Positions 3,986 to 36,999 are shown, counted from the stretch's first letter. The stretch is 37,624 nucleotides of DNA from Candidatus Desantisbacteria bacterium CG1_02_49_89 (GCA_001871075.1 MNUP01000059.1:1-37624); one strand, 5' to 3'. Notes: generated from the sequence alone by a model not told the origin. Numbers and translations: made by a program.

Positions 3986-4425
3986 AACAGAATAAATACA
4001 TTGTAAATCTCAAATTGCAAATTGTAAATTGCAAAATTAAGAAATAACCACGGAGACACAGAGAAATACATTCAGCCACGGATGCACACAGATAAATAAC
4101 TTTTGGCTGTTGCTGACAACTCACAACTGACAACTGCCTATAGCAGCCACAGGTTAACACTGTCATAAAATTAACCACAGAGACACGGAGACACAGAGGA
4201 AAACTTTTTACAGGGATCTTCGAAAGAGATTTAAAAAGCTCAGCCACGGATAAATACTTTTTTGGCTTCAAACTCATGACAAATGACTAATGCCTGCCCG
4301 CCAATCTTACTGGGTGGGACAAATGACTGCCTTCAGCCACTGAGTTCACTGAATTCACTGAGAAATTTCCTTCAGCTAATGAGCAAATGAGCTATTGAGC
4401 GCATTTTATGATTCACGAGGTTATG
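3986..4425. repeat. Longest gene-free stretch: cluster of about nine different word satellites
   Basis: No gene is seen here. The stretch reads as successive blocks of degenerate short words: CAAATTG/TTGTAAATT (about 4001-4040), CACGGAGACACAGAG (4047-4066 and near 4180-4200), CACGGATGCACACAGATAAA (about 4077-4098), ACAACTCACAACTGACAACT (about 4116-4136), CACAGGTTAACACTG (about 4148-4163), GACAAATGACT (4270-4330), CACTGAGTTCACTGAATTCA (about 4338-4358) and AATGAGCAAATGAGC (about 4377-4392). The GACAAATGACT block is split by a GC-rich palindrome (CCTGCCCGCC to GGGTGGG, about 4291-4318). The weak ribosome site CGAGG of the next gene is at 4416-4420. Confidence 0.8.
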
Positions 4426-7239
4426 ATGTCAAAAAAGTTAACGAACGACGTTCGACGCATGACCCGCCCAGCAAACGTGGCGGGCAAGCTGTTCGACGTA
4501 ATTATCGCCGGCGGCGGTTTATGCGGGATAGGCGCCGCACTTGCATTAAAAAATAATCCCACTTTGAAAAAGGGGGAAAGAGGGGGATTTAATAAAATCC
4601 TTATCCTGGAGCGGCGGCTTTCACCCGGCTGGGAAGTCTGTTCCGCGCTCAGCACCGATCTTGGCGCGGACAATACATTCGTTACCTCAGTACTTAAAGA
4701 AAGGCTTACTTCTATGGGCGGGCTGAAAAACAACCGCGTTGACCCCCCGATGTTCGAGTTTCTGCTAAACGCCCTGCTTGAGGAAAAAAACATAGATATC
4801 CTGCTGTGCGCGCATCCGATGCAGGTCACCGTAAAAGGAGATCTTGTCACGGCAATTATCGCGGGGACCAAGAGCGGGGAGATGTCCTTCGGGGCGAAGA
4901 TCTTTATTGACGCCACAGAGGAAGCCCTGTTGTGGAAACAGACAGGCGTCCCTTTCACGGACAATGATCCTCCCCCTGCGGCAAGACAGGCAGTATTTTT
5001 CAATAACATCGAACAGGAAATAACCTCCCCTGTTCTCCCGGGAGATTTCGCAGAGGCAAAGAATATAGTTATCCGTCCTTCTGTCTGGCAGAAAGAAGCC
5101 TGCGCTGAATTTGATATTCCCTCAGGCTCTATTTCTTCATGCCGGCTCGCGACATTTTCAATAATCTCTTTCATACGCGAAAAAGTGCCGCAGCTTAAGG
5201 ACGCGATCGTGACGCACACGGGCTTTGAACCGCTGCCCATGGACGCGGTTTCCTGCCCGAACACCGGGGCGGAAAGCCACCCGTATTTCAGGAACCTTTT
5301 CGCGGCAGGCCTTTGGGCGGTCCCTGACACCAGGAAAAGGCAGAGATCCGCCACCCTTGCAGGCAGGATACAGATCGGGGAAAAAGCAGGCATGCTCACA
5401 TCAAATGTTCGCATAAAACCCGTAAAGCCTTCCGGCGCTGAACTCCTGTCAAAGCCCGCCACGGCTGAAGCGGATGTTGTGGTCGCGGGAGGCGGGACAG
5501 CGGGAGCTATCGCAGCCATAGCCGCGGCAAGGCAGAACGCGAACGTGATACTTATCGAAACTTCCACTGTGCTGGGAGGAATAGGAACAGGCGGGGGCAT
5601 CCATGGATACTGCGTAGGCGCGCCGGGCGGCCTGCAGGATGAAGTTGACGCGGCAGTAGAAAAGGTATCGCCTGTTTTCAGCGGCAAACACTCGGCGCAG
5701 GGTTTCCACCCGGAAGCGAAGAAATTCGCCCTCGAGCAGATGGCGCGCGACGCAGGCGTTCAAATAATATATTCATCCCTGGTTGTGGGAGTCTGCGAGA
5801 AAAAAGGCAGGCGGATAAAAAGAGTGATCGCGGCCACCCCGTCAGGCAGGACGGTATTCAGCGCGAAGGCGTTCGTGGACTGCACCGGGGACGCGGATAT
5901 CGCGGTGATGGCAGGCGCGCCGTTCACAATAGGCAGGGAATCCGACGAGGTGCCGCACTGCTACTCCCAGTCCGGGGGCCACCTGGACAAGAACGGGAAT
6001 ATGGAGATGATCAATTTTGACGCGGGCTGGGCAGACCCGTTTGACGCGTTTGACCTTACGGCTTCCAGGCGGAAAGGCCTGAAATGCCTCGAACAAAGAT
6101 TCCCGGCGCAGAACCGCCTGCTTTATATCGCTCCGATCCTCGGAGTGAGGCAGAGCAGGCAGATAGCCGGAGATTACAGGCTTACCCTCGCTGACGAGAT
6201 CCTGGCAAGAAGGTTTGAAGACTGCGTGGGGTTCATGAAAACGTTCTATGAGAACCACGCCAATGACATAGAGAACCAGAGCGATGAAGGAGTGCTTTGG
6301 ATGTGGGTACTCGGTAATTTCTTTAAACCCATAGGGTGCGAGATCCCTTACAGGTGCATGCTGCCGAAAAACGTTGAGGGATTGCTGGTAGCGTGCAGGG
6401 CTGTGTCCGTGACAATGGACGCGCACTACGGGTTTAGGATGATGCGCGACCTGCAAAGGATCGGCGAAGCAGCGGGGATCGCGGCCGCTATCTCTGCCAG
6501 GCTTGGCAAAACCCCGCGGCAGCTTGACGTGAAGCTTGTGCAGGAACAGCTTAAAAAGACCGGGGCGCTGGACGAAAAATTCCGCCCTGTCCCCCTGATC
6601 CCCGAGAACTTCAGGAACGACACGTCGAGGCTTGCCGAAACAGGCGAGCCGAAAGACATAATCTACCCGCTCGCAATATCAGGCAAAAGCGCCGTACCCG
6701 CCCTTCTAAAGATCCTTGAAACCGCTAAGCCCGAAAACAAATTCCTGCCTGCTGTGGCGCTGGCGATGCTTAAAAGGAAAGAGGCGGTCCGGGAACTGGT
6801 AAAGAACGTGGTTGAGCGCAATCCTGCCAGGGTCCAGGAGAACGGGGCTGCGCCCAGATGGAAATCAGCGATCGTAATGCTCGGCAGGGCGGGAAGCCCG
6901 GAAGCCCTGCCTGCCCTTCTCGGCGTGCTTGAAGACAAGAATGCGGATGCTGACGCTCTTATCGCCGCATTGCGCGCGATGGGCAGGATCAAGAACAGGA
7001 AAGCCGTTCCTATGATCCTGAAATTCCTGAAGCGAAAAGATATCCCGCAAATACGCAAGTTCCAGGTCTCCTGCGCGGGTGTTGCGCCTGTTGAGGAAGA
7101 TGTTCTCTGGCAGATAGAACTTGCGGCTGCGGAAGCTCTTGCCGCACTGGGAAAGCCCCAGCCCAGTATAATAAGGAAGTACCTGGACCATCCGCGGTCC
7201 TACGTAAGAAGGTACGCTGCTAAAATAAAAGGGACTTAG
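4426..7239 (+). CDS. Double FAD-dependent oxidoreductase fused to C-terminal HEAT-type repeats
   Basis: The product, about 937 residues, has two flavin-binding halves. The first Rossmann motif is VIIAGGGLCGIGAALAL near residue 25. The second is VVVAGGGTAGAIAA near residue 352, followed by LGGIGTGGGIHGY, typical of the FAD-dependent oxidoreductase family found beside glycan-degradation genes in Planctomycetes and Lentisphaerae. From about residue 740 to the end it has helical repeats (SAVPALLKIL, EALPALLGVLED, KAVPMILKFL) like HEAT/PBS-lyase units, probably a docking scaffold. The chosen start has CGAGG five bases upstream; an upstream ATG at 4408 is possible. Two repeat-derived segments lie in frame: residues about 6-24, and a hairpin cassette between the first GGG motif and the next beta strand. 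The electron acceptor and substrate are unknown. Confidence 0.85.
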   Translation: MSKKLTNDVRRMTRPANVAGKLFDVIIAGGGLCGIGAALALKNNPTLKKGERGGFNKILILERRLSPGWEVCSALSTDLGADNTFVTSVLKERLTSMGGLKNNRVDPPMFEFLLNALLEEKNIDILLCAHPMQVTVKGDLVTAIIAGTKSGEMSFGAKIFIDATEEALLWKQTGVPFTDNDPPPAARQAVFFNNIEQEITSPVLPGDFAEAKNIVIRPSVWQKEACAEFDIPSGSISSCRLATFSIISFIREKVPQLKDAIVTHTGFEPLPMDAVSCPNTGAESHPYFRNLFAAGLWAVPDTRKRQRSATLAGRIQIGEKAGMLTSNVRIKPVKPSGAELLSKPATAEADVVVAGGGTAGAIAAIAAARQNANVILIETSTVLGGIGTGGGIHGYCVGAPGGLQDEVDAAVEKVSPVFSGKHSAQGFHPEAKKFALEQMARDAGVQIIYSSLVVGVCEKKGRRIKRVIAATPSGRTVFSAKAFVDCTGDADIAVMAGAPFTIGRESDEVPHCYSQSGGHLDKNGNMEMINFDAGWADPFDAFDLTASRRKGLKCLEQRFPAQNRLLYIAPILGVRQSRQIAGDYRLTLADEILARRFEDCVGFMKTFYENHANDIENQSDEGVLWMWVLGNFFKPIGCEIPYRCMLPKNVEGLLVACRAVSVTMDAHYGFRMMRDLQRIGEAAGIAAAISARLGKTPRQLDVKLVQEQLKKTGALDEKFRPVPLIPENFRNDTSRLAETGEPKDIIYPLAISGKSAVPALLKILETAKPENKFLPAVALAMLKRKEAVRELVKNVVERNPARVQENGAAPRWKSAIVMLGRAGSPEALPALLGVLEDKNADADALIAALRAMGRIKNRKAVPMILKFLKRKDIPQIRKFQVSCAGVAPVEEDVLWQIELAAAEALAALGKPQPSIIRKYLDHPRSYVRRYAAKIKGT
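4441..4497. repeat. In-frame ACGACGTTCGACG satellite with nested hairpin in FAD oxidoreductase N-terminus
   Basis: Words ACGAACGACGTTCGACG and GTTCGACG flank a CCCGCC (4463-4468) / GGCGGG (4479-4484) hairpin. The whole block is translated as the residues just before the first Rossmann strand. It resembles the ACGATG/ACGTCG satellites in gaps at 14040-14075 and 19160-19200. Confidence 0.6.
4551..4600. repeat. In-frame hairpin cassette within the first FAD-binding domain
   Basis: An AATCCC..CTTTGAAAAAGGGGG..AGGGGGATTT type sequence is translated as NNPTLKKGERGGFNK. It sits exactly between the first alpha helix and second beta strand of the Rossmann fold, a tolerant loop. A related cassette (AATCCTCCCCCGTTAAAGGG) lies in the gap at 7337-7368. 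Confidence 0.65.
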
Positions 7240-7253
7240 TTAAAGAATTGGCG

Positions 7254-7314
7254 GTCATTGCGAACAAAGTGAAGCAATCTAATATTCAGATTGCTTCGTT
7301 TCACTCGCAATGAC
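7254..7314. repeat. GTCATTGCGA inverted-repeat element, copy A (61 bp)
   Basis: Ends are GTCATTGCGA and TCGCAATGAC. The centre holds GAAGCAATCT and AGATTGCTTC as an inner inverted repeat. It is shorter than copies B (10953-11023) and C (30757-30984). It carries no reading frame and resembles the MITE-like palindromes known from many bacterial genomes. Confidence 0.85.
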
Positions 7315-7336
7315 AAACAAGAATCACCCTAACCAC

Positions 7337-7368
7337 AATCCTCCCCCGTTAAAGGGACGAGGAAAATT
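7337..7368. repeat. CCCCCGTTAAAGGG hairpin remnant
   Basis: AATCCTCCCCCGTTAAAGGG followed by GAGGAAAATT is a short palindromic cassette of the same type as the one inside the FAD oxidoreductase at 4551-4600. It ends directly before the AAGGAAG ribosome site of the next gene. Confidence 0.5.
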
Positions 7369-7380
7369 AAGGAAGTAATT

Positions 7381-8346: not shown

Positions 8347-8360
8347 AGATACATTTCAAA

Positions 8361-8482: not shown

Positions 8483-8493
8483 TAGGAGTATAC

Positions 8494-10998
8494 ATGGTTA
8501 AGCAAATATATGTCGTGCCCTACTGCCATCCTGACTGGGCGTGGACATTTAACAGAGAATGGCATGAGAAAAGATACGTGCTGGTAGCCGAGGAAGCCCT
8601 TGACGCGATAAAAAAGCATCCCCAGTTCCGCTGGTACATGGACCCTTATGTCACCCAGGCAGAAACGATATTAAGGCGCAGGCCGCAATTATATAAGGAA
8701 CTTCGCAAAAGGATAGCCGAGGGGAAGATCGCGGTATGCGGCTCTTTCACAAACCTGCGCCCCACCATGACCGGAGAGGAAACCCAGGTGCGGGACCTGC
8801 AATACGGAAGAAAAATATATAAGGAATTGTTTCCTGAAGCGGACTTATCCGTTTACGCTGGCACTGTTGACGTGTCCGTGGGCCACCCGCAGGTGCCCCA
8901 GCTGCTTGCGCTTGCCGGGTACAAGTATTTGCGTTTCTGGAGGCCGTACGTAGCACTTACAAGGAAAAGAGTTCCGCTTGAATTCTACTGGAAAGGATTT
9001 GACGGCTCAAAGATCCTGTGCTCAAGAGGAACATACGGCGGGCTGTGCTCAGCTGAAAACCTGGCTGAAGAACTTAACAACATGGCTGAAAGGGATAATG
9101 ACCTCCGGCCGGTAAGTATCGCCTGGGTAAGCCAGGGCACAGATGACTGCAGGCCTTTAAGAACACCTTATTCCGACAAACCCCTGCCGCTTTTGGAGCT
9201 CATGGAGGAATTGAACAGCAAGGAAGGCGTGAAGGTAAATTTCGCCACCCCGCCGCAGTATTTCAGGGAGATAGAAAAGCACATGTCAGAGATACCTGAG
9301 GTAAACGGCTCGCTTGACCCCTGCGACGTGTGCTACAACGTCGGGTGGGGAGGAGCGAACGGGCTTTTCGCCCTCCGCCAGGAGAATGAGATAAATCTTA
9401 CAACGCTTGAAACGTGGAACACTATCAGAGACATTAACAACATTAAAAACATTAGAGACATTGGGGACATTGAAGACATTGAAGACATGTGGAAAACGCA
9501 CCTTCTTTCCTGCGCCCACGCCACCCAGTGGCTTTTCGAGGACGATTTCAACAAGCTTTACAATAAAGCTTTAAACGTGAAACTCGAAACCTCTGAAACA
9601 ATTGAAGCAGTCTTATCTTCTCTTGCCCGGCTTATCCGCCTGCCTGAAACCGCGCAGGCTGTTGTTTTCAACTCCCTGCCGTTTGAAAGGGAGGAATGCG
9701 TCAGGATGCTTCTCACCTTCCCGGATTCCTGCGCCGAATTCTCGCTTGCGGATGCAAAAGGCAGGGATATTCCCTTCCAGGTGCTGGATAAGAACGAGAA
9801 TTCCTCAAGATCATATGAATTTGACGTTGCGGCAAAAGTGAAGATCCCGGCCTGCGGCTATAACGCTGTTTCCGCGGCCAAGCCTGGCCTGAAACCCGCC
9901 ATGCGGGGAGAAGGGGCAACGGTTGAGTTCAACGGGAGCGATCCGGTATGTATCAAGGCAGGCGGGAAGGAATACAGAGCGGAAAGTGATAGCAGTTTCG
10001 CGGACCTGAAACTGTACCGGGTGGACACGGCAAAAGGCGCCCTGCACGCCGGGCCAATAACTTCCGTTGAGCGGGTGAAATGGGGCATCGCAAAAACTAC
10101 CGCGGATGGGGACCTTTTTTCGGTTTACAGGTCAGAAGGTTCTGCGGGGCCGCACCCCGTTACAAGAGAGATCACGGTTTATAAGGATAAACCGGTCATT
10201 GACATCAACGTTGAGGTAAAATGGGGCGCTGAAGACGGATTCCTGGCGCTTGAGTTCCCGCTCCTGTTCAAAGGGAAGATCTTCGGGGACACGCCTTTTG
10301 CTGTTGAAGAGAAGGATATTGAAAAAGAGCCGTTCCTCGCAGAGGGCGAGAGCTGCTGGGAAAATATTGAAAGGCAGAGGAAAGGCCTGTTTTACGCGAA
10401 GTCCTTCATAAGCCAGAGTGACGGCGAAGGAAGCGTTTCATACCTGAATTATGACGCGTCGCATTACTATTTTCTGCCTGGCGGGGACAGTATCGGAAAT
10501 ATTCTCATAAACAGCGTGACAAAGCTTGAGGGATGGGAAAGGTTCGTGAACAAGGCAATGCGGGCAGAAGGAACGCACAGGTTCGCGTCCCGCCTTATTT
10601 TCCATAAAGGTGACTGGAGGTCCGCGCACATCGCCCGGGTCTCACAGGCGTTTGCAAGGAAACCCGGAATTATAGCAGCGGAAGGATCTACAAGGTGCCC
10701 GCCGCAGGAACCGGCGGGTTCCTTCCTGTCGCTTGAACCTTCAAACCTTATTATGACCGGATTTTACAGGGAAGGGAAAAACTTCATACTGCGGTTTTAC
10801 GAAACTGGGGGGAGAAAAACAAAAGCAAGGATAAAGCTTCCTTTTACTGCAAAGAAGGCTGTGAAAATTGATTTGCAGGGAAAAATTATTACCATTCTTA
10901 AACATGGTAAAACTTTAAAGCTTGAAGTAAGGCCCTGGGAAATAGTTTCTTTGTCATTGCGAGGTCGCCCTGGGCGGCCGCGGCAATCTGAACGCTAG
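8494..10998 (+). CDS. Divergent GH38 alpha-mannosidase-like protein
   Basis: The 834-residue protein is related to GH38 alpha-mannosidases. Predicted zinc ligands are retained: His12 and Asp14 in CHPDWAW, and the nucleophile Asp126 in TVDVSVGHPQVPQ, spaced nine residues from Pro as in normal GH38 enzymes. The usual WxxDxFG context is changed, and the first His of HxHxD is Tyr10, so the substrate may differ from mannosides. No signal peptide is seen. I chose the ATG at 8494 because AGGAG lies five bases upstream; the longer frame back to 8446 is satellite. Residues about 312-332 are a seven-unit 9-bp minisatellite, and the last 15 or so residues and the stop codon come from an inserted inverted-repeat element. 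Confidence 0.8.
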   Translation: MVKQIYVVPYCHPDWAWTFNREWHEKRYVLVAEEALDAIKKHPQFRWYMDPYVTQAETILRRRPQLYKELRKRIAEGKIAVCGSFTNLRPTMTGEETQVRDLQYGRKIYKELFPEADLSVYAGTVDVSVGHPQVPQLLALAGYKYLRFWRPYVALTRKRVPLEFYWKGFDGSKILCSRGTYGGLCSAENLAEELNNMAERDNDLRPVSIAWVSQGTDDCRPLRTPYSDKPLPLLELMEELNSKEGVKVNFATPPQYFREIEKHMSEIPEVNGSLDPCDVCYNVGWGGANGLFALRQENEINLTTLETWNTIRDINNIKNIRDIGDIEDIEDMWKTHLLSCAHATQWLFEDDFNKLYNKALNVKLETSETIEAVLSSLARLIRLPETAQAVVFNSLPFEREECVRMLLTFPDSCAEFSLADAKGRDIPFQVLDKNENSSRSYEFDVAAKVKIPACGYNAVSAAKPGLKPAMRGEGATVEFNGSDPVCIKAGGKEYRAESDSSFADLKLYRVDTAKGALHAGPITSVERVKWGIAKTTADGDLFSVYRSEGSAGPHPVTREITVYKDKPVIDINVEVKWGAEDGFLALEFPLLFKGKIFGDTPFAVEEKDIEKEPFLAEGESCWENIERQRKGLFYAKSFISQSDGEGSVSYLNYDASHYYFLPGGDSIGNILINSVTKLEGWERFVNKAMRAEGTHRFASRLIFHKGDWRSAHIARVSQAFARKPGIIAAEGSTRCPPQEPAGSFLSLEPSNLIMTGFYREGKNFILRFYETGGRKTKARIKLPFTAKKAVKIDLQGKIITILKHGKTLKLEVRPWEIVSLSLRGRPGRPRQSER
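9427..9489. repeat. In-frame minisatellite, 7 x 9 bp, within GH38-like gene
   Basis: Seven consecutive NNN-RAC-ATT units, the last ending in ATG, are translated as RDI-NNI-KNI-RDI-GDI-EDI-EDM. The unit is exactly three codons, so copy number can change without a frameshift. It lies in a loop between the catalytic domain segments. Confidence 0.9.
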
Positions 10999-11023
10999 AT
11001 TGCTTCACTGCGTTCGCAATGAC
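10953..11023. repeat. GTCATTGCGAGG inverted-repeat element, copy B, capturing the mannosidase C-terminus
   Basis: Ends are GTCATTGCGA and TCGCAATGAC, with inner CAATCT / AGATTG arms, about 71 bp. The left half is translated as the last residues of the mannosidase (LRGRPGRPRQSER) and its stop TAG lies in the inner arm. It is the same family as 7254-7314 and 30757-30984. Confidence 0.9.
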
Positions 11024-11044
11024 ATGCAAGACCGGACAAATAAA

Positions 11045-11869: not shown

Positions 11870-11881
11870 AAAAACCTAAAC

Positions 11882-12072
11882 CTTAACCACAGAGTCAACA
11901 GAGAATAATATTTAACCACGGATTAACACGGATTTTTACTTGTAAACTTGTAAACTGTGTAAACTCTGTAAACTACATTTGAAACCACAGGTTAACACAG
12001 GTTAACACTGTTTCTACTTTGATTCTATGACTCTCTAACTCTATCTTATGCCATACGCTATACGCCATTTGC
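11882..12072. repeat. Satellite-filled gap: CACGGATTAACACGG, GTAAACT and ATACGC words
   Basis: Consecutive word blocks: TTAACCACAGAGTCAACAGAG, then CCACGGATTAACACGG, then GTAAACTTGTAAACTGTG and AAACTCTGTAAACT, then CACAGGTTAACACAGGTTAA, and CATACGCTATACGCCAT at the end. No gene is seen. The GTAAACT words recur at 22050-22105 and 23425-23470. Confidence 0.75.
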
Positions 12073-13938
12073 TCATTGCGCCGCCGGATGTTCGAGGTGC
12101 CGCCACTGGGTATTATACAGATCGGCATACACGCCGTTCAGGGAAAGAAGTTCGGAGTGGGTGCCGGTTTCAACTATTTTTCCTTCCTGGACAACAAGTA
12201 TCTTGTTCGCATTTAGCACTGTCGACAGCCGGTGCGCGATAACGAAAGACGTGCGCTTGCGCAGGAGGTGGTCTATCGCCTGCTGGATGAGCGCCTCCGT
12301 GCGGTTATCCACCGAAGAAGTCGCTTCGTCAAGGATAAGTATGGGCGGATTTTTCAGGAGCGCCCGGGCGATCGCGACGCGCTGTTTCTCCCCCACTGAA
12401 AGCCGTATGCCGCGCTCGCCTATCTGGTGTTCGTATCCGTCAGCCAGGCCCATAATGAATTCGTGGCAATTCGCGAGCTTAGCGACTTCTATGATCTCAT
12501 CAAGGGTCGCGCCAAGCTTGCCGTAGGCGATATTCTCCCGGACAGTGCCGTTGAATAAAAACGGTTCCTGCATAACGATGCCGATATTCTCGCGCAGATC
12601 CTTGAGTTTCAGTTTTTTAACGTCTATGCCGTCTATGGATATCATTCCTTCCTGCGAATCGTAGAACCTGGGTATCAGGCTTACGATGGTGGTCTTGCCG
12701 GCACCGGTAGGGCCGACAAGAGCGATAATTTCACTCTGGCGCGCCTCGAAATCCACGCCGTGCAGGACCTCAACGCCCTTTTTATATTCAAACCTTACTT
12801 TGTGGAATACAACTTCGCCCTTTATCGGCCTCGGAAGGCTCAGCGCGCCCGGCGCCTCCTGGACCTCGGGGACCGCGTCTATGACCTCGAATATGCGCTC
12901 GCTCGCGGCGCGGGCATGCTGGAGCATATGGTTGACCTGGTTAAGCTGGTGTATTGGCTGGTAGAAAAGCCCTAGGTAAAAAAGGAAGGACACGATCTGG
13001 CCGGCGGTCATCGAGCCGTCCGTTATCGCCATCTTGCCGCCGAAAAGCAGGACCAGCACAGTGCCGATGGAAGTTGTGGTGACGATCGCGGGAGAGAATA
13101 TGGACCAGATCTTTATCGCCTGGAGATTTGTCTGCAGGTAATCGGTGCTTTTTTCTGAAAGCCTTCCGACCTCGTATTCTTCCCTTCCGAAGCTCTTTAT
13201 TTCGCGGATACCGGAGAGGCTGTCCTGCAAGAGCGCGCTTATTTCGCCCATTTTTTTTCGCACCTGCTGGTAGATCTTGTGCGCGATGATAGTGACCGCG
13301 AAGATGAGGACTGCAAGCACCGGGATCGGGACGATGGCGATGAGCGCGAGCTTCCAGTTCGTGAAGAACAGGACGAACGTGATGCCGACGAACGTGAGGA
13401 CCGCCATTATCGCCACGTCAACGCCGTCAACTATGACGCGCTCAACAGCGCCGACGTCGTTCGTGATACGGGACATCAGGTTCCCTGTCTGGGCGTTGTC
13501 ATAAAAACTGAAGGATAGCCGCTGGAGGCTGCGGTAGAGGTCCTGCCACATATCATAAATGATCTTCTGGCTGAGCCTTCCCATTATATAGCCCTTGAGC
13601 CCGCCCAGGACGTTGGACACAACATAGATCACGGCCAGGTAAATTATCAGGGAATAGAAATTCTGCAGCTGGTGCTTGGTTATGACCCGGTCGAGGATTA
13701 TCCCGATGAGCTTAGGAGGGATAAGACCGATGAGGGTGACGAACGCGGAAATGCAGAGCGAGACCGTTACCTGCCACACATAGGGTTTGAGGTAATTCAG
13801 CAGGCGCCTGTAGTTGAGCTTGGCTTCGGGAATATCATCAACGGCGAACCTGCCGAAACCGCCCCTGCCGCCCGGACCCCCGGGGCCGCGGCCCGGACCT
13901 CCGTGACCGCCCATAAGTGGACCGCCTGCGCCTCGCAT
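12073..13938 (-). CDS. ABC-type exporter (MsbA/multidrug type), fused membrane and ATPase domains
   Basis: The 621-residue half-transporter has about six membrane helices in residues 50-360 and a nucleotide-binding domain with Walker A GPTGAGKTT near 409-417, signature LSVGEKQRVAIARAL near 511, Walker B ILILDEATSSVD near 530 and the H-loop AHRLST. This layout matches MsbA/LmrA-like homodimeric exporters of lipids or drugs. The first 30 residues are a glycine-rich tail (GGHGGPGRGPGGPGGRGG) not found in MsbA. I chose the ATG at 13938 because AGAGGA lies just upstream; a TTG at 13998 would only add satellite-type sequence. The substrate is not predictable from context. Confidence 0.9.
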   Translation of the reverse strand: MRGAGGPLMGGHGGPGRGPGGPGGRGGFGRFAVDDIPEAKLNYRRLLNYLKPYVWQVTVSLCISAFVTLIGLIPPKLIGIILDRVITKHQLQNFYSLIIYLAVIYVVSNVLGGLKGYIMGRLSQKIIYDMWQDLYRSLQRLSFSFYDNAQTGNLMSRITNDVGAVERVIVDGVDVAIMAVLTFVGITFVLFFTNWKLALIAIVPIPVLAVLIFAVTIIAHKIYQQVRKKMGEISALLQDSLSGIREIKSFGREEYEVGRLSEKSTDYLQTNLQAIKIWSIFSPAIVTTTSIGTVLVLLFGGKMAITDGSMTAGQIVSFLFYLGLFYQPIHQLNQVNHMLQHARAASERIFEVIDAVPEVQEAPGALSLPRPIKGEVVFHKVRFEYKKGVEVLHGVDFEARQSEIIALVGPTGAGKTTIVSLIPRFYDSQEGMISIDGIDVKKLKLKDLRENIGIVMQEPFLFNGTVRENIAYGKLGATLDEIIEVAKLANCHEFIMGLADGYEHQIGERGIRLSVGEKQRVAIARALLKNPPILILDEATSSVDNRTEALIQQAIDHLLRKRTSFVIAHRLSTVLNANKILVVQEGKIVETGTHSELLSLNGVYADLYNTQWRHLEHPAAQ

Positions 13939-13998: not shown

Positions 13999-14078
13999 AT
14001 TAAGCCATTATAACTGCACGATAAATCGTGCCGCTACTTTAAGATTAAAACGATGCACGATGAACGATGTTACGAGAA
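13999..14078. repeat. ACGATG satellite with CGATAAATCG palindrome
   Basis: GCACGATAAATCGTGCCGCTAC at about 14017-14038 is a palindrome of the common type ending GCCGCTAC. It is followed by ACGATGCACGATGAACGATG (about 14050-14069). The same words recur near hemW (20490-20531) and at 19160-19200. Confidence 0.75.
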
Positions 14079-15062: not shown

Positions 15063-15084
15063 TGTTCTCCTTAAAGAAAATTAT

Positions 15085-15182
15085 GAGTTATGATTTATGA
15101 GTTATGAATTAACAACAAGGTATTAATTTATATGAAATTCCATGCTTTTGACTCATAACTCATCATTCATAATTCATAATTG
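15085..15182. repeat. TTATGAGTTATGA satellite enclosing an AACAACAAGGTATT cassette
   Basis: ATTATGAGTTATGATTTATG on the left and AACTCATCATTCATAATTCA on the right are inverse-oriented words. Between them is AACAACAAGGTATTAATTTA (15110-15150 region). The same cassette, in the other orientation and also flanked by TATGAATTATGAG words, is at about 33499-33536. Confidence 0.75.
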
Positions 15183-15186
15183 TCAG

Positions 15187-15856: not shown

Positions 15857-16013
15857 TGTTTAACCACGAATTGTTTGCTTCGCAACATTCTTTGTGAGTT
15901 ACGTCGATAAACGACGAATTGCACGAATTTTCTCTTTAACCTTTTAACCTCTTTAACCACTTTAACCTTTAACAGTATTTACAGTGGGCTGTCGACTGTG
16001 GACCGTGGACTAA
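15857..16013. repeat. Satellite-filled gap: CCACGAATT, CTTTAACC and GTGGACCGTGGAC words
   Basis: A CACGAATTG word is interrupted twice by small palindromes (TTGCTTCGCAA, and ACGTCGATAAACGACG) before the word resumes as GAATTGCACGAATTT. CTTTAACCTTTTAACCTC and GTCGACTGTGGACCGTGGAC follow. This shows the nested-insertion pattern clearly. Confidence 0.75.
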
Positions 16014-16632: not shown

Positions 16633-18594
16633 CTATTTTAAAAGAAAAACTACGGTGGAAAGGGGTTTCATTGTGACCGTGAACTCCTGCAGGGCCTTGC
16701 CGATCTCTTTCTGGCTGATAAGGTCAAAAACATCCGCTTTTACCGGAAGCTTTATTTTCTTCTCGCCGCCGCCGTTGGCGTGAACGCACAGGAAGGACCT
16801 GTTCGCGTAAACAACGTCTCCGGTTTCAAGGTATAAATGAACGCCTGCTTCCCTGCATATGGTACGCAGGTCATCCGCGGACGGCTGGTCCTTAAGATAA
16901 ACGCTTGTCCATTTATCAAGTTTCTTTGCGGGTTTTCCGACCCTGGAGCTCAGGTCCGCGTCCTCGTTCACGGCCTGCAGCGCGCGGGTAAGGCTGAAGC
17001 CCGTGGCCGCCTCCGCGTTCTCGTGGGTCACGGTGCGGGCGTCCTCGTCGAAGAAACAGGATTGTTCCAACCACACAGCCCACCTGTCATCCGTTTTCAC
17101 TATTCTTTCAAGCATCTTCATTATCCCCGCGTTCAGCCTGTAACAGAATTTGAAGAAATAGACCTTGTAAGGCCTTGCGAGTGGTATATCCTCGAGCAGG
17201 ATGAAATCCACCGGGGCGCCGATATGGCCGATGTCAACTATGTTGTGCCATGACTGGAATTTCGCCTGGGGCCCGCGCAGGTGCTGGGATCTCTCGTCGA
17301 TGACCACGGCGATCTCCGCTGAACCCGACATATCGCATTCAAGCGCCTGCCGGCCGGCTGCGAAGATCCTGCCGATTTCTTCAAGCAGGCAGGGATCGTT
17401 ATACCAGCCGCCTGACTGGTCCATCCACCAGGAAGCCACGCTGTTGCAGACCGCGTTGCCGAATTCTCTCCATTGCATCGAGATCGTTTCTTCAAGGGTT
17501 TTCGTTTTGCCGTAACCATCGTTCCCCGGAACGTTTATGTGCGTGCGGATGTCATTCTCATCGAACCACAGCTTCCCGTGCAGTTTTACGGACCCGGCAA
17601 GCGACATGAAATAGCTGTATCCCGTTCCCAGCTCCCTTCCGGTGTAGCAGGTGGGGCTTGAGAGCATGTCAATGTCCTTTGACCGGAGCAGCTCGCCCAG
17701 CGCGTAATGGCCAGAATCAAGCTGGCCGCGTGGGATCGACTGCAGCTGGTAGCCGTAGAAAACGCTTACGAGCGCGCGCCTGCCGGTTTTTTCCTTGACA
17801 AGCGCCGCGAAACAGCGGATGGTATCCACTATCTTCCAGTGGTGGTACCCGTAGAAATCTATAACGTCCTTCTGGGTTTCAGGAGAGAAGAACTCACCGG
17901 CCGCGGGGCTCCTCCTGCTCTTCACGGAAGGGATTTTCGCGCTGTTCAGGAAAACGGCGTGGTTGCGCCAGGAGTCCTGCAGGGCTTCGTCTGTTCCGTA
18001 TTTCTTACCGAGCCACTGCCTGAACGAAGCTTCATTCGCGGGGTTGTAATCGATCTCCGGGCCGCCCCAGTAGAACCATTCCTCGCTCTGCTCGCTGGAC
18101 AGGTGGTAGCCGATAATGTGTTCGGCGAAAGGACCCTGCTCGCAGTGCGAAATATAGGCGTCAAGGAAATCAAGCGTATCTTTCCGCCATTTCTCCGAGG
18201 CGATGGACGGAAGCAGCTGGCCGCGCAGGTATTCATCCGGGCTGCCCTGGTAGGCCGAAAGGTCCTCGCGCATGCGCAGCTCCGAAGGATTTGAGTCAAC
18301 CCACCATCTCGGGGGCATAAGGAACATCCGCGGGATCATCAAGACCTGCGGGCATGCCTTTACGGTTTTTGAAAATATTTCGTCAAGCCCGGAAAAATCA
18401 TATTCCCCGGGGCCTTTCCAGTATTTCAGGTCAACCGTGAAAAAAACAATGCGCACGCCTGCCTTCGCGAAATCCTCAAGGAATTTGTAGTCGTGGTCAG
18501 GGCCCCTCCAGAAAGCAAGGGGGACCTGCTGCCTGCCGTCCACGAAGATCGCGGGGCCGTTGTTGTGGATCCTTATTTCTGTTCTTGGTTTCAT
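16633..18594 (-). CDS. Glycoside hydrolase, GH-A clan (GH42/beta-galactosidase-like)
   Basis: The 653-residue enzyme looks like a GH42-type (beta/alpha)8 barrel. After a short beta segment (IFVDGRQQVPLAFWRG) come the barrel strands (VRIVFFTVDLKYW, QVLMIPRMF). A candidate acid/base is Glu168 in LSSEQSEEW and a candidate nucleophile is Glu346 in WFDEND. A class I glutamine amidotransferase-like trimerisation domain, usual in GH42, seems present from about residue 410 (AEIAVVIDERS, VDFILLEDIP). The C-terminus is a small beta domain (LPVKADVFDLISQKEIG). No signal peptide is seen, so action in the cytoplasm on imported sugars is likely. AGGAA precedes the ATG. The exact sugar is unknown. Confidence 0.75.
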   Translation of the reverse strand: MKPRTEIRIHNNGPAIFVDGRQQVPLAFWRGPDHDYKFLEDFAKAGVRIVFFTVDLKYWKGPGEYDFSGLDEIFSKTVKACPQVLMIPRMFLMPPRWWVDSNPSELRMREDLSAYQGSPDEYLRGQLLPSIASEKWRKDTLDFLDAYISHCEQGPFAEHIIGYHLSSEQSEEWFYWGGPEIDYNPANEASFRQWLGKKYGTDEALQDSWRNHAVFLNSAKIPSVKSRRSPAAGEFFSPETQKDVIDFYGYHHWKIVDTIRCFAALVKEKTGRRALVSVFYGYQLQSIPRGQLDSGHYALGELLRSKDIDMLSSPTCYTGRELGTGYSYFMSLAGSVKLHGKLWFDENDIRTHINVPGNDGYGKTKTLEETISMQWREFGNAVCNSVASWWMDQSGGWYNDPCLLEEIGRIFAAGRQALECDMSGSAEIAVVIDERSQHLRGPQAKFQSWHNIVDIGHIGAPVDFILLEDIPLARPYKVYFFKFCYRLNAGIMKMLERIVKTDDRWAVWLEQSCFFDEDARTVTHENAEAATGFSLTRALQAVNEDADLSSRVGKPAKKLDKWTSVYLKDQPSADDLRTICREAGVHLYLETGDVVYANRSFLCVHANGGGEKKIKLPVKADVFDLISQKEIGKALQEFTVTMKPLSTVVFLLK

Positions 18595-18599
18595 TGTAA

Positions 18600-18806
18600 A
18601 TTCCTGATTACGGTGATTTTTAACTGATGATTACGGTGATTATTAAAGAGATTACGGTGTAATAACAGAAACCAGTTTGAAACCTGCCGCCCGCATTTTT
18701 CGGATCGAGCCTCGCTCCGATGGTCATCGGAGCGGGAAACTTGAAACCGTCTCAAGCTATACGCTATGTGCAATGTGCCATATGCAGCGGTCAGCTGACC
18801 GCTACA
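18600..18806. repeat. GATTACGGTGATT satellite plus nested palindromes, reaching into the zincin stop codon
   Basis: GATTACGGTGATT repeats about three times (18606-18660). An AGTTTGAAAC word is split by a GATCGAGCCTCGCTCCGATGG-type hairpin before resuming as CTTGAAACC. ATACGCTATGTGCAATGTGC follows, and then the perfect palindrome GCGGTCAGCTGACCGC at about 18787-18802, flanked by CTACATG, which overlaps the end of the zincin gene. Confidence 0.8.
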
Positions 18807-21098: not shown

Positions 21099-21956
21099 TC
21101 AACCAGGCGAAAACTGACGAAATTTCTCAAGCAGGCGCTGGAACTCTTCCTCGGAATAATATTCGATCTCGATCCTGCCTTTTTTACCGCGGTGCGAAAT
21201 CCTTACCCTTGTGCCCAGCAGTTCCTGCAGCTCATTCTCCAGTTCGGCGACATTAACGTCTTTTCCGGCTTTGACCTTTGAGCCTTGAGCTTTGAGCTTG
21301 CTGACCAGCGCTTCCGTCCTGCGCACCGACAGCTCGCTTTTAACAGCCTTCCGCGCCAGCGCTATCTGCAGCACGGGATCCTCGGCTGAAAGCAGCGCCC
21401 TGCCGTGCCCCTCGGAAAGCTTGTCCTCCGAAATAAGGTCCCTTATTTCCTGGGGCAGGCCGAGCAGGCGCAGGGTATTCGCGACCGTAGCCCTGTCCAT
21501 CCCAATCTTTTTTGCCAGGTCTTCCTGCGTTAAGAAAAATCTTTCGATAAGTATCCTGTAGCCCTCGGCTTTTTCAAGCGCGTTAAGGTCTTCGCGCTGT
21601 AGGTTTTCTATGAGCGCTATCTCGAGCATTTCGTTATCGGACGCCTCCCGCGTTATCGCCGGGACCGCTTTTAACCCCACTTCCTTCGCGGCGCGGAACC
21701 GCCTTTCCCCGGTTATGATCTCGTAGGAATCGCCGCGCCTGCGCAGTATAAGCGGCTCAAGGATGCCTTTTTCCCTTATTGAACTCACGAGTTCGGCAAG
21801 CCTTTCCGGCTTGAATTCTTTGCGGGGCTGGAATGGATTCGCGCGGATCTTTTCGACTTCTATCTGGGCAATGCCCTCTTTAAGCGCGGGCGGCGCCACT
21901 GCCGCAGGGGGTATAAGCGCCCCCAGCCCCCTTCCAAGCTTCTTTTTCGGTTCCAT
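21099..21956 (-). CDS. parB: Chromosome-partitioning protein ParB
   Basis: The 285-residue protein starts with KKKLGRGLGALIPP, a typical ParB/Spo0J N-terminal box contacting ParA. It has the CTP-binding box GERRFRAAKEVGLKAVPA, the partner box ENLQREDLNALEKAEGY, a helix-turn-helix (LTQEDLAKKIGMDRATVANTLRL, split across helices) and a C-terminal dimerisation domain (GRIEIEYYSEEEFQRLLEKF). The linker KLKAQGSKVKAG is translated from an AGCTCAAAGCTCAAGG satellite. AAAGGAGAA precedes the ATG. It is on the same strand as parA but two unrelated genes lie between them. Confidence 0.95.
   Translation of the reverse strand: MEPKKKLGRGLGALIPPAAVAPPALKEGIAQIEVEKIRANPFQPRKEFKPERLAELVSSIREKGILEPLILRRRGDSYEIITGERRFRAAKEVGLKAVPAITREASDNEMLEIALIENLQREDLNALEKAEGYRILIERFFLTQEDLAKKIGMDRATVANTLRLLGLPQEIRDLISEDKLSEGHGRALLSAEDPVLQIALARKAVKSELSVRRTEALVSKLKAQGSKVKAGKDVNVAELENELQELLGTRVRISHRGKKGRIEIEYYSEEEFQRLLEKFRQFSPG
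21269..21300. repeat. In-frame CTTTGAGCCTTGAGC satellite in the ParB linker
   Basis: TTTGACCTTTGAGCCTTGAG then CTTTGAGCTTG is a run of degenerate 7-8 bp words. It is translated (reverse strand) as KLKAQGSKVKAG between the DNA-binding and dimerisation domains, where length changes are tolerated. Confidence 0.7.
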
Positions 21957-21965: not shown

Positions 21966-22118
21966 TTTGTATGATTACGGTGATTTTAAAAGATGATTAC
22001 AGTGATTATTTAAAAATGATTACGGCGATAAATAATTGACCGCGGATTTCAAACTCTGAAAACTGTGTAAACTTTATAAACTATGTAAACTTGCAGTCTT
22101 GTAAGCTTGTTGACTGCA
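21966..22118. repeat. GATTACGGTGATT and GTAAACT satellites upstream of parB
   Basis: ATGATTACGGTGATTTTAAA, GATGATTACAGTGATTATT and ATGATTACGGCGATAAA are three copies (about 21970-22033). They are followed by AAACTGTGTAAACTTTATAA and ACTATGTAAACTTG. No parS-like site (TGTTTCACGTGAAACA) was seen. Confidence 0.8.
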
Positions 22119-24832: not shown

Positions 24833-25615
24833 TTATGACTGTTTTTGTAAAAATTCACGGGTAAACTCCGAGTAAGCCTTTGCCCCGGCGCTTGAGCGGT
24901 CATAGGATATCACCGGCTTGCCGTAACTGGGGGATTCGCTTAAGCGCACGTTGCGCGGCACTATCGTATCGTAAACCTTCTCTTTGAAATAACCCCTTAC
25001 TTCCTCTATCACCTCGAAGGAAAGCCTGGTGCGCGCGCTGTGCATCGTAAGCAAAAATCCCTCTATCTCAAGCGAAGGGTTGAGCCCTCCCCTGACAAGA
25101 TTGACCGTCTGCAGCAGCTGGCTCAGGCCTTCCAGCGCGTAGTATTCGCACTGCACCGGTATCAGGGCTGAGTCTGCCGTGACAAGCCCGTTCAGGGTGA
25201 GCAGGCCCAGGGAAGGCGGGCAGTCCACGATTATGAAATCATACCTTTCTTTCAGGGGCAGCAGGCTTTTTTTGAGCCTTACCTCTCTTTCATCAAGCCC
25301 GACAAGGTCTATATTCGCGCCTGCAAGCTGTATGCCGGAAGGAAGGATATCAAGTCCCTGGATAAGGGGATATTTAACGATCGCGGCGTCTACCGGGTGG
25401 CCCGCGATAAGAACTTCGTAAACGGTTTCCACGAGGGTGGTCTTGTCAATGCCAAGGCCGCCGGTCGCGTTCGCCTGCGGGTCTATGTCCACAAGCAGAA
25501 CTTTTTTAGGCGGCTGGTTCTCGGCTCCCGCGGCAAGGCAGGCGGAGAGATTGACCGCAGTAGTGGTCTTGCCCACTCCGCCTTTCTGGTTGGTAACGCA
25601 TATTATCTTTCCCAT
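24833..25615 (-). CDS. parA: Chromosome-partitioning ATPase ParA (Soj)
   Basis: The 260-residue protein has the deviant Walker A KGGVGKTT at residues 11-18, the signature NLSACLAAG, DIDPQANATGGLG, Walker B FIIVDCPPSLGLLTLN and PVQCEYYALEGLSQLL. Length and motifs match chromosomal Soj/ParA. It binds ATP and non-specific DNA and works with ParB in origin segregation. AGAGGTG precedes the ATG. In most genomes parB follows directly; here two genes and three repeat blocks separate them. Confidence 0.96.
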   Translation of the reverse strand: MGKIICVTNQKGGVGKTTTAVNLSACLAAGAENQPPKKVLLVDIDPQANATGGLGIDKTTLVETVYEVLIAGHPVDAAIVKYPLIQGLDILPSGIQLAGANIDLVGLDEREVRLKKSLLPLKERYDFIIVDCPPSLGLLTLNGLVTADSALIPVQCEYYALEGLSQLLQTVNLVRGGLNPSLEIEGFLLTMHSARTRLSFEVIEEVRGYFKEKVYDTIVPRNVRLSESPSYGKPVISYDRSSAGAKAYSEFTREFLQKQS

Positions 25616-25621
25616 TACACC

Positions 25622-25742
25622 TCTGGGATTACGGTGATTTTAAATAATGATTACGGTGATTATTTGAAGATTAGCAGTTCCTGATATAAAATCACTTTAA
25701 ATAATCACTGTAATCTCAGTCATAATCACTGTAATCAATATT
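25622..25742. repeat. GATTACGGTGATT satellite in both orientations
   Basis: GATTACGGTGATTTTAAATA and ATGATTACGGTGATTATTTG on the left are followed by ATCACTTTAAATAATCACTG and CATAATCACTGTAATCAATA in reverse orientation on the right. The gap can therefore fold as one long imperfect hairpin between parA and pilT. Confidence 0.85.
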
Positions 25743-26829: not shown

Positions 26830-26990
26830 TTTTGATATAGTCAATAGTCCATAGACCATAGTCCATAGCGAGCAGTATTTGATTAATGGATTAATGGATT
26901 AATGGTTTCTTGGTTAAAATCGATAAGATCCTTGCAGTTACTCTGACACGTTGACACGTTGATACGCTGACACGCTCTTTTGTTGCGTGC
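26830..26990. repeat. ATAGTCCATAGACC, GGATTAAT and GACACGTTGATACG satellites
   Basis: AATAGTCCATAGACCATAGT, GATTAATGGATTAATGGATT and TGACACGTTGACACGTTGAT form three word blocks in the gap between hppA and pilT. No gene is seen. Confidence 0.8.
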
Positions 26991-29019: not shown

Positions 29020-29039
29020 CTAAGTCCTCCCTTCTATTT

Positions 29040-29100
29040 AAAAATGTCATAAATGACATTTTTTGATTACAGCGATAAAAACCCGATTGCAGCGATTATA
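29040..29100. repeat. AATGTCATAAATGACATT palindrome plus GATTACAGCGAT words
   Basis: AAAAATGTCA and TGACATTTTT form a 10-bp stem with a TAAA loop (29040-29063). GATTACAGCGATAAAAACCC and GATTGCAGCGATTATA follow. All of this lies in the 5' untranslated region of hppA. Confidence 0.65.
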
Positions 29101-29137
29101 TACTAAGCTCAATAGCTTGATGATATAATTATATTAG

Positions 29138-29165: not shown

Positions 29166-29204
29166 ATATAATATACTTTGATAGTGAATATTAATGGATT
29201 CCGA

Positions 29205-30741: not shown

Positions 30742-30756
30742 ATTCACCGGTTAAAA

Positions 30757-30984: not shown

Positions 30985-30986
30985 AA

Positions 30987-33443: not shown

Positions 33444-33454
33444 GTTTACCTCTT

Positions 33455-33562
33455 CAATTATGAATTATGAGTTATGCCCCGAGGGGCATTATGAATCAAC
33501 AACGTGGATTTTATTTCAAATAAATACCTTGTTGTTAACTTTCAACCTTCAACTTTTAACCT
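33455..33562. repeat. TATGAATTATGAG satellite, GCCCCGAGGGGC hairpin, AACAACAAGG cassette and TTTCAACC words
   Basis: TTATGAATTATGAGTTATG is interrupted by the perfect GCCCCGAGGGGC palindrome (33477-33488) before resuming as ATTATGAATC. The AACAACAAGGTATTTATTTG cassette (reverse strand, about 33499-33536) and AACTTTCAACCTTCAACTTT follow. No gene is seen. Confidence 0.8.
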
Positions 33563-34624: not shown

Positions 34625-34646
34625 ATAAACTCCCTTTTGCAGCCAA

Positions 34647-34729
34647 AGATTTCCACGAAAGCACTCCGCCCGTCTTTCAGCGGGCGAGACTTCGCCCACC
34701 TGAAGGGATGGGCGAGGAAAACACGAAAA
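34647..34729. repeat. 83-bp dispersed repeat, copy 2
   Basis: About 95% identical by eye to 2801-2883, 31.8 kb away in the same orientation, with differences only near the GGAAGG/GAAGGG centre and in the right GTAC/ACAC word. It would add a false MGEVSPAERRAECFRGN extension to the URO-D protein. Confidence 0.88.
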
Positions 34730-34747
34730 AATAGATCTACGTATTCC

Positions 34748-34868
34748 CCAGAACCTGGAGTAGAGCCTTTAGGCTCGTTTTCTTCAGGAGTAGACCCTTT
34801 AGGGTCGTTAAATAACGGGGCTCCCTCCTTAAAGACTGGCGGGTCTTCGAAAAGCCCCTACTCCTGAA
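34748..34868. repeat. GGAGTAGA..CTTTAGG tandem hairpin cassette with 11-bp inverted ends
   Basis: Two tandem units, GGAGTAGAGCCTTTAGGCTC and GGAGTAGACCCTTTAGGGTC, each contain a small hairpin. TTCAGGAGTAG (34783-34793) is perfectly inverted as CTACTCCTGAA (34858-34868). The right arm contains the stop codon TAG and last two codons of the GH106-like gene. Confidence 0.85.
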
Positions 34869-36927
34869 CTACTATAAAAACTCCTTCATAATCTTTTAGG
34901 TCCAGCTTGATCTTTGTGCGATTGTCAGCAAATTTGAACGCTATTTTCTTAATTTTACCTGTTTCAGGATACCACAAAGATGGCATGCCTTTAACAGGAA
35001 CAGTAACATCAATTTGACACTGATTTTCGCTGATATTTGTGACAAAATAAATATGCTTTCCGCCTTTATAAATATGTTTGTAAAGAATATCCGGGTTCGC
35101 GGGCTCAACCGCAAGGTCGGTTATTTCGAGTTTCTTCAGATACTCTGCGAGCAGCCCGGTTTCAGGCAGGAATTCTCCCATCCCGGTAAACAGCTCTTTC
35201 GAGAGCTTTTCCGCTTCAACGTCATTGTCTTTCATCCCGGCGCCGTATTTCGGCATCATGCCCACCGAAACTACTTTCCCGTCCGCCTGTACGAATTTCA
35301 TCAACTTCTTCAGCGTCTTCACCGGCATCGCATCCGTGGGCGGAATGATTATCACGCTGTATTTTTCGTCGTGCGTCGTAAGTCGCCCTTGCGGGTCGTA
35401 CGTTTTAACTTTCACACTTTGCAATTTACAATTTGCAATTTGAAATTTGTAATTCTGTATCGCTCGGTCGTCCAGGATATCAAAGTCCACCTGGCTTCTC
35501 AGAAGCGCCCTGCACACGCTCGTAAACTCGTCCGCGACCATCTGCGCGGTTTTGTCAGGATGGGCTTCATAGATCGAGCGGCCTGTCGGGTAGAAATTCG
35601 AAAGCACTCCCCATATCGGGTAATAAACCGCGGCATTACATACGTGCTTCCCGCCTGTGAGCATGTATCCCAGCCTTGAAACGCATTCGCAGTATTTCCT
35701 GTATTCGCCGCCGGGGCCGGAAACATTGACCTTGTTGGAGAAAAACGCGTTCGTCTTCAGCTCTTTCCAGAAATGCCCGTAATAGGATGTGATCACGTTC
35801 ACGCCCAGCGCGTATTGCAGGTTCGCGGTCCCTATCATCTGCCTTACAGTAACCTGGATGCCCGCGCAACGCTCGCCGTGGTCCGAGGTTTCGCTCATTG
35901 TCCTGTCAGAACCGATCACATGCGAAACAGAACTGACAAGCTTCGGCGTTATAAAGCCGTTGCCCTCTATAAGATTGCGCGGGTTCGAGGAAAGTACATC
36001 AATACCCGGAAGGTCATACCTTCTGATGCTCCTGTAAAAATCCCCGTAAAAATACGCGTGCCATATAAGGTTTTCCTCGCACAGGGAATGCCCGCTCGCT
36101 TTTATCCCGATCTTGTGGCACCAGGCCTGTATCTGCCCGAAATACCTTTCAGCGCACAGATCAGCGACAACGTCGTAGAAATCGCAGCGCACCTTCCTGT
36201 GTTCATCCCCTGTGCCGCTGAACAGTTTTTCAAGATGCAGCTCAAGAAGATACCCCTTTTTCTTTTTGAAGATTTTCGTTAGATCTTCAACCCAGGGGAT
36301 GCAGGGCGGGAACTGCTGGTTCCCGCGTATATATGCTGTCATAAGCGAAGGCTCGTCTGTGAAAATTGCCCCTACTCGCTTTTTCAGGTTCGGTATGCGT
36401 TTCGCGTATTCTTTATGGGTCAGGTCTATGAACTTTTTTATCGCGTTCTTGTTGATAATGTTCACGTACGGCCTTTTCGCGTGCACATTCTCGGTAGCGT
36501 GGGTGCCGTCGTAGGTTTTTTGGGCTTCGTATTTAATACTGCCGTTTTCTTCCTCCTTACGGACAAGCCCGATGGACTGGTATTCAGGATCGGCTTCAAG
36601 GACCAGGGTTCCCGCCTCTCCTGAAGGATAGCCTTCCTCGTCATAAAGCCACAGCACAAAACCGTGTTTTTCCGCAAGCTTTATGCCGTCGAGCAAGAGT
36701 TTCCACTGGGCTTCGTCCTTCATGTAATTTTTAAAGCTTACGTTGAACACAAGCCCGCCCACCCCGAGATTTTGCAGCAACCTAAGGTTTGTTTCAAGCA
36801 TTTTAAGGTACGCGCCTGCGGCTGACAGCTTTTCGCCCTTTTCGCTGCGCAGAAGGTTGTCAAACCCGTGAATGATCTGCATTACCCGGTATTTGTTATC
36901 TGGATTCTTGAACTGTCTTTTATCCAT
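34858..36927 (-). CDS. GH106-like (alpha-L-rhamnosidase-type) glycoside hydrolase
   Basis: The 689-residue protein resembles GH106 and related barrel hydrolases: GGLVFNVSFKNY, LWLYDEEGYPSGEAG, GAIFTDEPS (candidate acid), GIKASGHSLCEENL and VITSYYGHFWKE, with a Rossmann-like domain after residue 460. No signal peptide is seen. GGGAGAAAGG precedes the chosen ATG. The segment NYKFQIANCKLQSVKVKTYD and the following GRLTTHDEK are translated from CAAATTG and CGTCGTGCG satellites inserted in a loop. The last codons QE and stop come from an inverted-repeat cassette. The substrate is uncertain; rhamnose-containing glycans are the family guess. Confidence 0.75.
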   Translation of the reverse strand: MDKRQFKNPDNKYRVMQIIHGFDNLLRSEKGEKLSAAGAYLKMLETNLRLLQNLGVGGLVFNVSFKNYMKDEAQWKLLLDGIKLAEKHGFVLWLYDEEGYPSGEAGTLVLEADPEYQSIGLVRKEEENGSIKYEAQKTYDGTHATENVHAKRPYVNIINKNAIKKFIDLTHKEYAKRIPNLKKRVGAIFTDEPSLMTAYIRGNQQFPPCIPWVEDLTKIFKKKKGYLLELHLEKLFSGTGDEHRKVRCDFYDVVADLCAERYFGQIQAWCHKIGIKASGHSLCEENLIWHAYFYGDFYRSIRRYDLPGIDVLSSNPRNLIEGNGFITPKLVSSVSHVIGSDRTMSETSDHGERCAGIQVTVRQMIGTANLQYALGVNVITSYYGHFWKELKTNAFFSNKVNVSGPGGEYRKYCECVSRLGYMLTGGKHVCNAAVYYPIWGVLSNFYPTGRSIYEAHPDKTAQMVADEFTSVCRALLRSQVDFDILDDRAIQNYKFQIANCKLQSVKVKTYDPQGRLTTHDEKYSVIIIPPTDAMPVKTLKKLMKFVQADGKVVSVGMMPKYGAGMKDNDVEAEKLSKELFTGMGEFLPETGLLAEYLKKLEITDLAVEPANPDILYKHIYKGGKHIYFVTNISENQCQIDVTVPVKGMPSLWYPETGKIKKIAFKFADNRTKIKLDLKDYEGVFIVVQE
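35365..35460. repeat. In-frame CGTCGTGCG and CAATTTGCAATTTG satellites in the GH106-like gene
   Basis: CGTCGTGCGTCGTAAGTCGC with a nested CGCCCTTGCGGG hairpin, then TTTGCAATTTACAATTTGCA and ATTTGAAATTTGTAATTC. Both word families are the same as in gaps (4001-4040, 8361-8482, 19167). They are read in frame as a 32-residue insertion. Confidence 0.88.
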
Positions 36928-36999
36928 CCTTTCTCCCTTTTTTTCATTATGTATTGTCACGAAACGTTACTGGGTTGCTGGGTTATAAATTTTTCAGTT
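36928..36999. repeat. Short gap with GTTACTGGGTTGCTGGGTTA words
   Basis: GTTACTGGGTTGCTGGGTTA at about 36966-36985 is a two-copy word like that at 24728-24752. No retroelement template repeat or gene is seen between the reverse transcriptase stop and the next gene. Confidence 0.6.

Follow-up and report, generated by a model that had tools for sequence, protein, structure and literature searches.

The question raised by this locus is what fills the space between its genes, and how it came there. The window is the whole of contig C119 (37.6 kb), which belongs to a 2.48-Mb bin of 150 contigs (a single MAG), and the DNA concerned lies between positions 3986 and 36999. As a whole, the gap DNA is a patchwork made from a few dozen types of small repeat copied genome-wide, which fall into four classes: REP/BIME-like hairpins, a palindrome of ~105 bp whose arms mostly hold four heptamers each, arrays of 7-10-bp words, among which units of 5-6 bp are almost absent, and GATTACGGTGATT, an oriented repeated signal found just upstream of genes. 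For the scale-up, the window was pooled with 20 more stretches from its genome into a 433-kb sample, with genes called by a simple codon model. Gaps bearing runs of N (withheld or masked; L034 853-4843 and L151) were left out, giving 274 gaps. The cross-genome panel comprised 192 genomes including the window's own (191 others), mostly one per family; G001 is the only same-order genome compared, the other supposed relatives having just the domain in common. Tandem words were scored as exact short-lag runs against dinucleotide shuffles and coding DNA, and hairpins at stems of ≥6 and ≥8 against shuffles. An Rfam search of the window returned no family, a search for tRNA remnants found none, and the loci of 33 named relatives held no shared words.

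Degenerate tandem words are present where a preliminary description had placed them. Exact short-lag runs of at least 7 bases cover 25.5% of the bases in the window's 21 gaps; coverage is 2.6% for shuffled and 3.0% for coding sequence, and TRF lists the arrays. Considered individually, 15 of the 21 gaps exceed dinucleotide shuffles at p ≤ 0.03 when runs of at least 6 are counted. The shuffle test detected no tandem excess in the remaining six (7240, 10999, 16585, 19255, 20515 and 34700), at least four of which (7240, 10999, 19255 and 34700) carry hairpins in place of words, as judged from their sequence. The gap at 3986-4407 is a mosaic (TRF and sequence; shuffle p = 0.01) of the words AAATTGC/T (4000-4035), CACGGAGACACAGAG, CTGACAA, CACTGAGTT and AGCTAATG. 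Plus-strand arrays listed by TRF are formed by CACGGATTAA, GTAAACTNTGTAAACT and CACAGGTTAA at 11912-12008 (also seen in the sequence; families FAM1/FAM6), TTTAACC at 15932-15968 (likewise seen in the sequence), GTAAACTNTG at 22051-22091, and ATAGTCC, GATTAATG and TGACACGT at 26837-26974. Concerning unit size, the 433-kb sample holds 80, 81, 60 and 65 arrays of 7, 8, 9 and 10 bp, respectively, vs. ~4-6 each in shuffles (3.8 for period 7), and one array each of 5 and 6 bp. Harmonics of the repeat period are seen at 14-21, and the iterons give a peak at 21-23. Units of ~7-10 bp with few of 5-6 bp were also found in three repeat-rich genomes of other phyla, G116 having almost only 7. A separate GC-rich 21-bp tandem repeat (GCCCGGACCCCCGGGACCGCG) lies inside an ABC transporter ORF (13870-13910).

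Hairpins exceed shuffles throughout the 433-kb sample, with 273 vs. 121 at stem ≥6 (2.3-fold) and 75 vs. 12 at stem ≥8 (6-fold). Within families the loops (TAAA, TGAA) and the flanks (GTAAC, GTAG) stay constant and the two stem arms vary together (e.g. TCAAACC/TCAGGGC/TCAAGGC). A GTAG foot was observed 18 times vs. 4.5 expected, many other hairpins having GTAAC, CCCC or other feet. In the window, the hairpin scan placed a REP-like example, GCACGATAAATCGTGC, on the minus strand at 14016-14037 with a CGCTAC foot, which reads GTAG on the opposite strand, and the hairpin-only gap at 34700-34857 holds AGCCTTTAGGCT and ACCCTTTAGGGT, with variable stem and fixed loop. The ATTGCGA palindrome is a head-to-head dimer, with 88 occurrences in the window's genome and a TGTC tag ahead of ATTGCGA in 27 of 39 cases. 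The pattern census located one copy at 7254-7314 (GTC-ATTGCGA...GCAATCT / AGATTGC...TCGCAATGAC), and a second copy, at 10953-11023, overlaps the 3' end of a GH38-like ORF.

As for a possible mover, ten Y1_Tnp (PF01797) loci are present in the genome. The one gene examined (L041 3655-4421) matches the REP-associated transposase model (E = 5e-21) and scores 75 bits for NF047646, whose cut-off is 80; it is RAYT-like, and sits between AGGGACAGGCACTATTTTTA inverted repeats rather than REP hairpins (TIRYT-like). Another TIR-like sequence, GTGCCTGTCCC, lies near 5640 in L048. The idea that Y1_Tnp alone moves the ATTGCGA palindrome is contradicted by G062, which has the most copies in the panel (375), is listed as 100% complete and gives no Y1_Tnp match; Y1_Tnp genes are therefore not needed for this family in that genome. 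Among genomes, the number of palindrome copies does not follow that of Y1_Tnp genes (rho 0.19).

The same pieces occur far outside this genome. The TGTC-tagged ATTGCGA palindrome was found in 31 of the 191 other genomes, nearly all of different families (32 of 192 with its own), for a control total of 1. The pattern CACGGATTN{0,4}CACGGATT is present in 14 of 192 genomes (13 others) vs. 2 for the reversed, 3 for the shuffled and 1 for the shuffled-reversed pattern. Arrays of CACGGATT are multi-copy in G172, G094, G025, G133 and G145; those of at least two of the 14 genomes (G095 and G177) look like coding Asn-Pro-Cys repeats and were rejected as intergenic. Doubles of CACAGAGG occur in nine panel genomes, the three "control" genomes holding GGAGACAC, which also belongs to the word set, and the heptamer GAGTTAT in three (control 1). 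G001 contains few words, one of them shared, and this speaks against simple vertical inheritance. The AGTCCATAG arrays were discarded as shared elements, their exact pattern being found, among the 192 genomes, only in G116 (108 copies) and not in the window's genome, so that they are look-alikes at most. Word-sharing genomes carry on average 5.6 Y1_Tnp genes vs. 1.6 (p = 8e-7, unadjusted for genome size), and co-occurrence of palindrome and words among genomes is not significant (p = 0.21). Complete plasmids of Pseudomonadota, Bacteroidota and Cyanobacteriota bear the heptamer or the palindrome. The plasmid heptamers (Serratia, Kovacikia, Bacteroides, Pseudomonas, Microcystis) are real arrays, but the reversed-control query likewise finds plasmid-borne arrays of heptamers (5 records vs. 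25 for the real query), and they were set aside as weak evidence.

From sequence comparison, the occurrence of the ATTGCGA palindrome and the CACGGATT words across phyla is best read as horizontal spread; for the words, convergent slippage is the alternative. According to the latter, slippage at 7-10 bp would reach the same words in different phyla through chance and composition, and it is a possibility that we take seriously without finding it likely. The reversed-control matches on plasmids agree with it, as do the small number of heptamer classes (~1,200) and a vocabulary overlap that is small beyond the ascertained words. Against it, the three same-composition controls recover far fewer genomes than CACGGATT does, and the ATTGCGA palindrome is too long for chance. 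Reversed control patterns also match multi-copy arrays in G190 and G098/G145 (11, 6 and 4 copies), which suggests that other genomes have word sets of their own. A wider claim, that 7-10-bp words and hairpins form a shared vocabulary spreading horizontally, with the arrays and word-armed palindromes as selfish elements moved across phyla by HUH single-strand transposition in trans and making up much of the intergenic DNA of many environmental bacteria, seems to us unlikely.

Within the genome, the preliminary description had given each gap a private set of words, and had proposed local word amplification together with mobile palindromes that favour the satellites. The words are in fact widely dispersed. 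Multi-copy dispersed sequence makes up 56% of gap bases vs. 0.1% in shuffles (BLAST of gaps against gaps, 433 kb), and 85% of tandem-word bases fall within dispersed copies. Among the 274 gaps, 38 words are each found in at least two vs. none in shuffles, so that private sets are not confirmed, and greedy de novo extraction yields 22 repeat families that together account for about a quarter of the gap bases. The two-layer picture of short words and mobile-looking palindromes, some of them nested, is retained; local amplification of private words is not supported because the gaps draw on one vocabulary, copied from gap to gap over the genome. Hairpins that interrupt a word do exist: ATGCCCCGAGGGGCAT lies inside TTATGAGTT|ATG at 33474-33489, and L046 has a near copy. 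As a general pattern this is weak, an identical 7-mer flanking both sides of 8.8% of hairpins vs. 5.6% of random intervals, and any preference of palindromes for satellites is at most slight.

The TTATGA words belong to the second class. In all 13 gaps having both orientations they are convergent, and the aligned copies form a single ~105-bp element, AATTATGAGTTATGAATTATGAATTATGA ATCAACAGCAAGGAATT...AATTCCTTGCTGTTGA CTCATAACTCATAATTCATAATTCATAATT, with four heptamer units per arm in eight of the ten uninterrupted copies. Because this number is mostly fixed, satellite growth does not describe the palindrome. At 15078-15183, four heptamers (AATTATG/AGTTATG), an AT-rich core and four inverted heptamers were aligned. 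The element is predicted to fold as a long hairpin (DNA fold z of −9.9 and, for the copy at 15078-15183, −4.8), the alignment containing no compensatory change or covariation. From its sequence and the comparison of hairpin flanks, 33455-33550 is a copy whose left arm is interrupted by the ATGCCCCGAGGGGCAT hairpin mentioned above. With a single same-order genome for comparison, neither an empty site nor a target duplication or autonomous relative came to light. Other arrays also form inverted pairs (GATTACGGTGATT, 10 of 10 convergent; GTAAACT, 4 of 4 in one arrangement), and those of CACGGATT, CACGAAA and GACACGTT never do.

Replication slippage of each gap's own word, with mobile palindromes inserted preferentially into the resulting satellites, is on this evidence quite unlikely as the source of the gaps. 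The reality of the tandem words and their restriction to 7-10 bp would suit a slippage process, as would the TAACTGA arrays of related Cyanothece strains, which differ mostly by 7-nt steps (PMC4679880). It does not account for words that recur genome-wide, for tandem bases mostly shared with other gaps, for a palindrome of mostly 4+4 units or for so slight a hairpin preference.

GATTACGGTGATT had been counted among the satellites; it behaves instead as an oriented signal, spaced 21-23 bp and placed upstream of start codons. It has 167 matches in the genome vs. none for the reversed sequence, and its tandem form is absent from all 191 other panel genomes. In 42 of the 274 gaps a start codon is preceded by the ATCACCGTAATC strand, whose closest copy usually falls between −23 and −35. 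Neighbouring copies are 21-23 bp apart (mode 23) with T-rich and A-rich linkers, and 73 copies point one way vs. 19 the other. The downstream genes include parA, parB, gyrB, yidC, a PTS enzyme I-type gene, and genes for prephenate dehydratase, H+-PPase and glycosidases. In the window, minus-strand iterons precede a GH42-like gene (16633-18594; iterons 18605-18659, sites −46 and −23 from the start codon), parB (21099-21956, ParB by Pfam; three iterons at 21971-22029, sites −73, −50 and −28) and the H+-PPase gene (two degenerate iterons at 29065-29096, from site positions, sequence and Pfam). Upstream of parA (24833-25615, ParA-type AAA_31), two convergent GATTAC[GA]GTGATT pairs occupy 25616-25740 (forward −121 and −100; reverse −45 and −23). 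On the basis of its sequence and placement, GATTACGGTGATT is probably a regulatory leader, i.e. a widespread regulatory or promoter-proximal site.

The ParB-like and ParA-like genes are thus both preceded by these iterons. Gene strand and GC skew change over near 11 kb, and this switch, together with the ParA/ParB-like genes, indicates that the region may be origin-proximal.

The behaviour of GATTACGGTGATT, with its strong orientation, helical spacing and start-proximal position in front of parA, parB, gyrB, yidC, the PTS enzyme I-type gene and glycosidases, could be extended to the words at large, most of which would then be DNA or RNA binding sites kept by selection for global regulators or nucleoid proteins. 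Proposals of IHF/HU sites for Geobacter tandem repeats and of translational sites for TAACTGA point the same way. The other words have no consistent position, however, most word types vary freely, and per-array orientation is mostly balanced, with CACGAAAN as the exception (15 same vs. 3 opposite), so that we hold this extension to be rather improbable. An artefact of assembly or contamination, for which a single MAG of 150 contigs with only one same-order genome for comparison leaves room, is very improbable, as families recur over the sampled contigs, elements are shorter than ~160 bp, positions are tied to start codons, and the same words or palindromes occur in the single-contig-listed genome G047 and on complete plasmids.

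We therefore consider it fairly probable that the gaps are mosaics, put together from a restricted number of small dispersed elements that would have arisen as follows. HUH transposases of the RAYT/TIRYT group would copy the hairpin elements via single-stranded DNA; word arrays and word-armed palindromes would ride along or move by similar single-strand copying; whole-unit slippage would then edit the plain arrays, and the iteron leader would bind a global regulator. If so, much gap DNA in under-sampled phyla would be a copied mosaic and not random spacer, with a strict unit-size rule and pieces common to several phyla, and a start-proximal iteron signal, previously unrecognised, would be marked ahead of core genes. 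The origin of heptamer repeats, a question dating back to the cyanobacterial STRRs, would become testable.

Precedents are published for REP elements, heptamer repeats and cross-phylum sharing. In the literature searched, the iteron leader and the word-armed palindrome appear undescribed, as do the 7-10-bp size window and the full extent of the shared vocabulary, and searches with the exact word and palindrome sequences gave no relevant paper among the matches listed. The word-armed palindrome resembles MITEs in form: it is short, non-coding (interior included) and dispersed, with long inverted ends, which here are built from tandem heptamers.

REP/BIME elements and their RAYT/TIRYT enzymes are known in GTAG and CGTC super-families (Di Nocera 2013, PMC3733652; Nunvar 2010, PMC2817692), the CGTC type being reported without a dedicated transposase. 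Like them, the present hairpins are high-copy intergenic palindromes of 20-40 nt with a tag at one end (GTAG in some; TGTC before ATTGCGA), head-to-head pairs, a preference for the 3' side of genes and Y1 HUH transposase genes in the genome, and the L041 gene between its inverted repeats recalls the TIR-flanked enzymes of PMC3733652. They differ in their more variable stems and in lying beside or within word arrays; compared with the written description in PMC3733652, the ATTGCGA stems enclose a longer, itself hairpinned interior. This palindrome has the [CT]GTC tag, the stem starting with AT and the head-to-head dimers of CGTC REPs. It is classed as REP-like and not as a CGTC member because, in place of their 8-9 bp stem, 4-5 nt loop and CCA tail, it has that longer interior and a CT or CC tail.

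Tandem hepta- and octanucleotides of Geobacter metallireducens, termed global regulator sites (classes 1-4) and proposed to bind IHF/HU (PMC2700814), share with the present arrays intergenic 7-8-bp units, opposite-strand pairs and dozens of copies. Here, units range over 7-10 bp, families are many more and one family is a compact palindrome of ~105 bp (class 4 being compared by its description). TAACTGA direct repeats are known from Beggiatoaceae, Cyanobacteria and Bacteroidetes (PMC4679880). Together with STRRs they share with the present elements intergenic arrays of tandem 7-nt units (8, 9 and 10 also occurring here), a patchy spread over phyla and, in one genome, a location just upstream of start codons. 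What sets the present genome apart is a large mixed vocabulary and a start-proximal element that is a 13-mer iteron, spaced 21-23 bp and, in its tandem form, private to it among 192 genomes.
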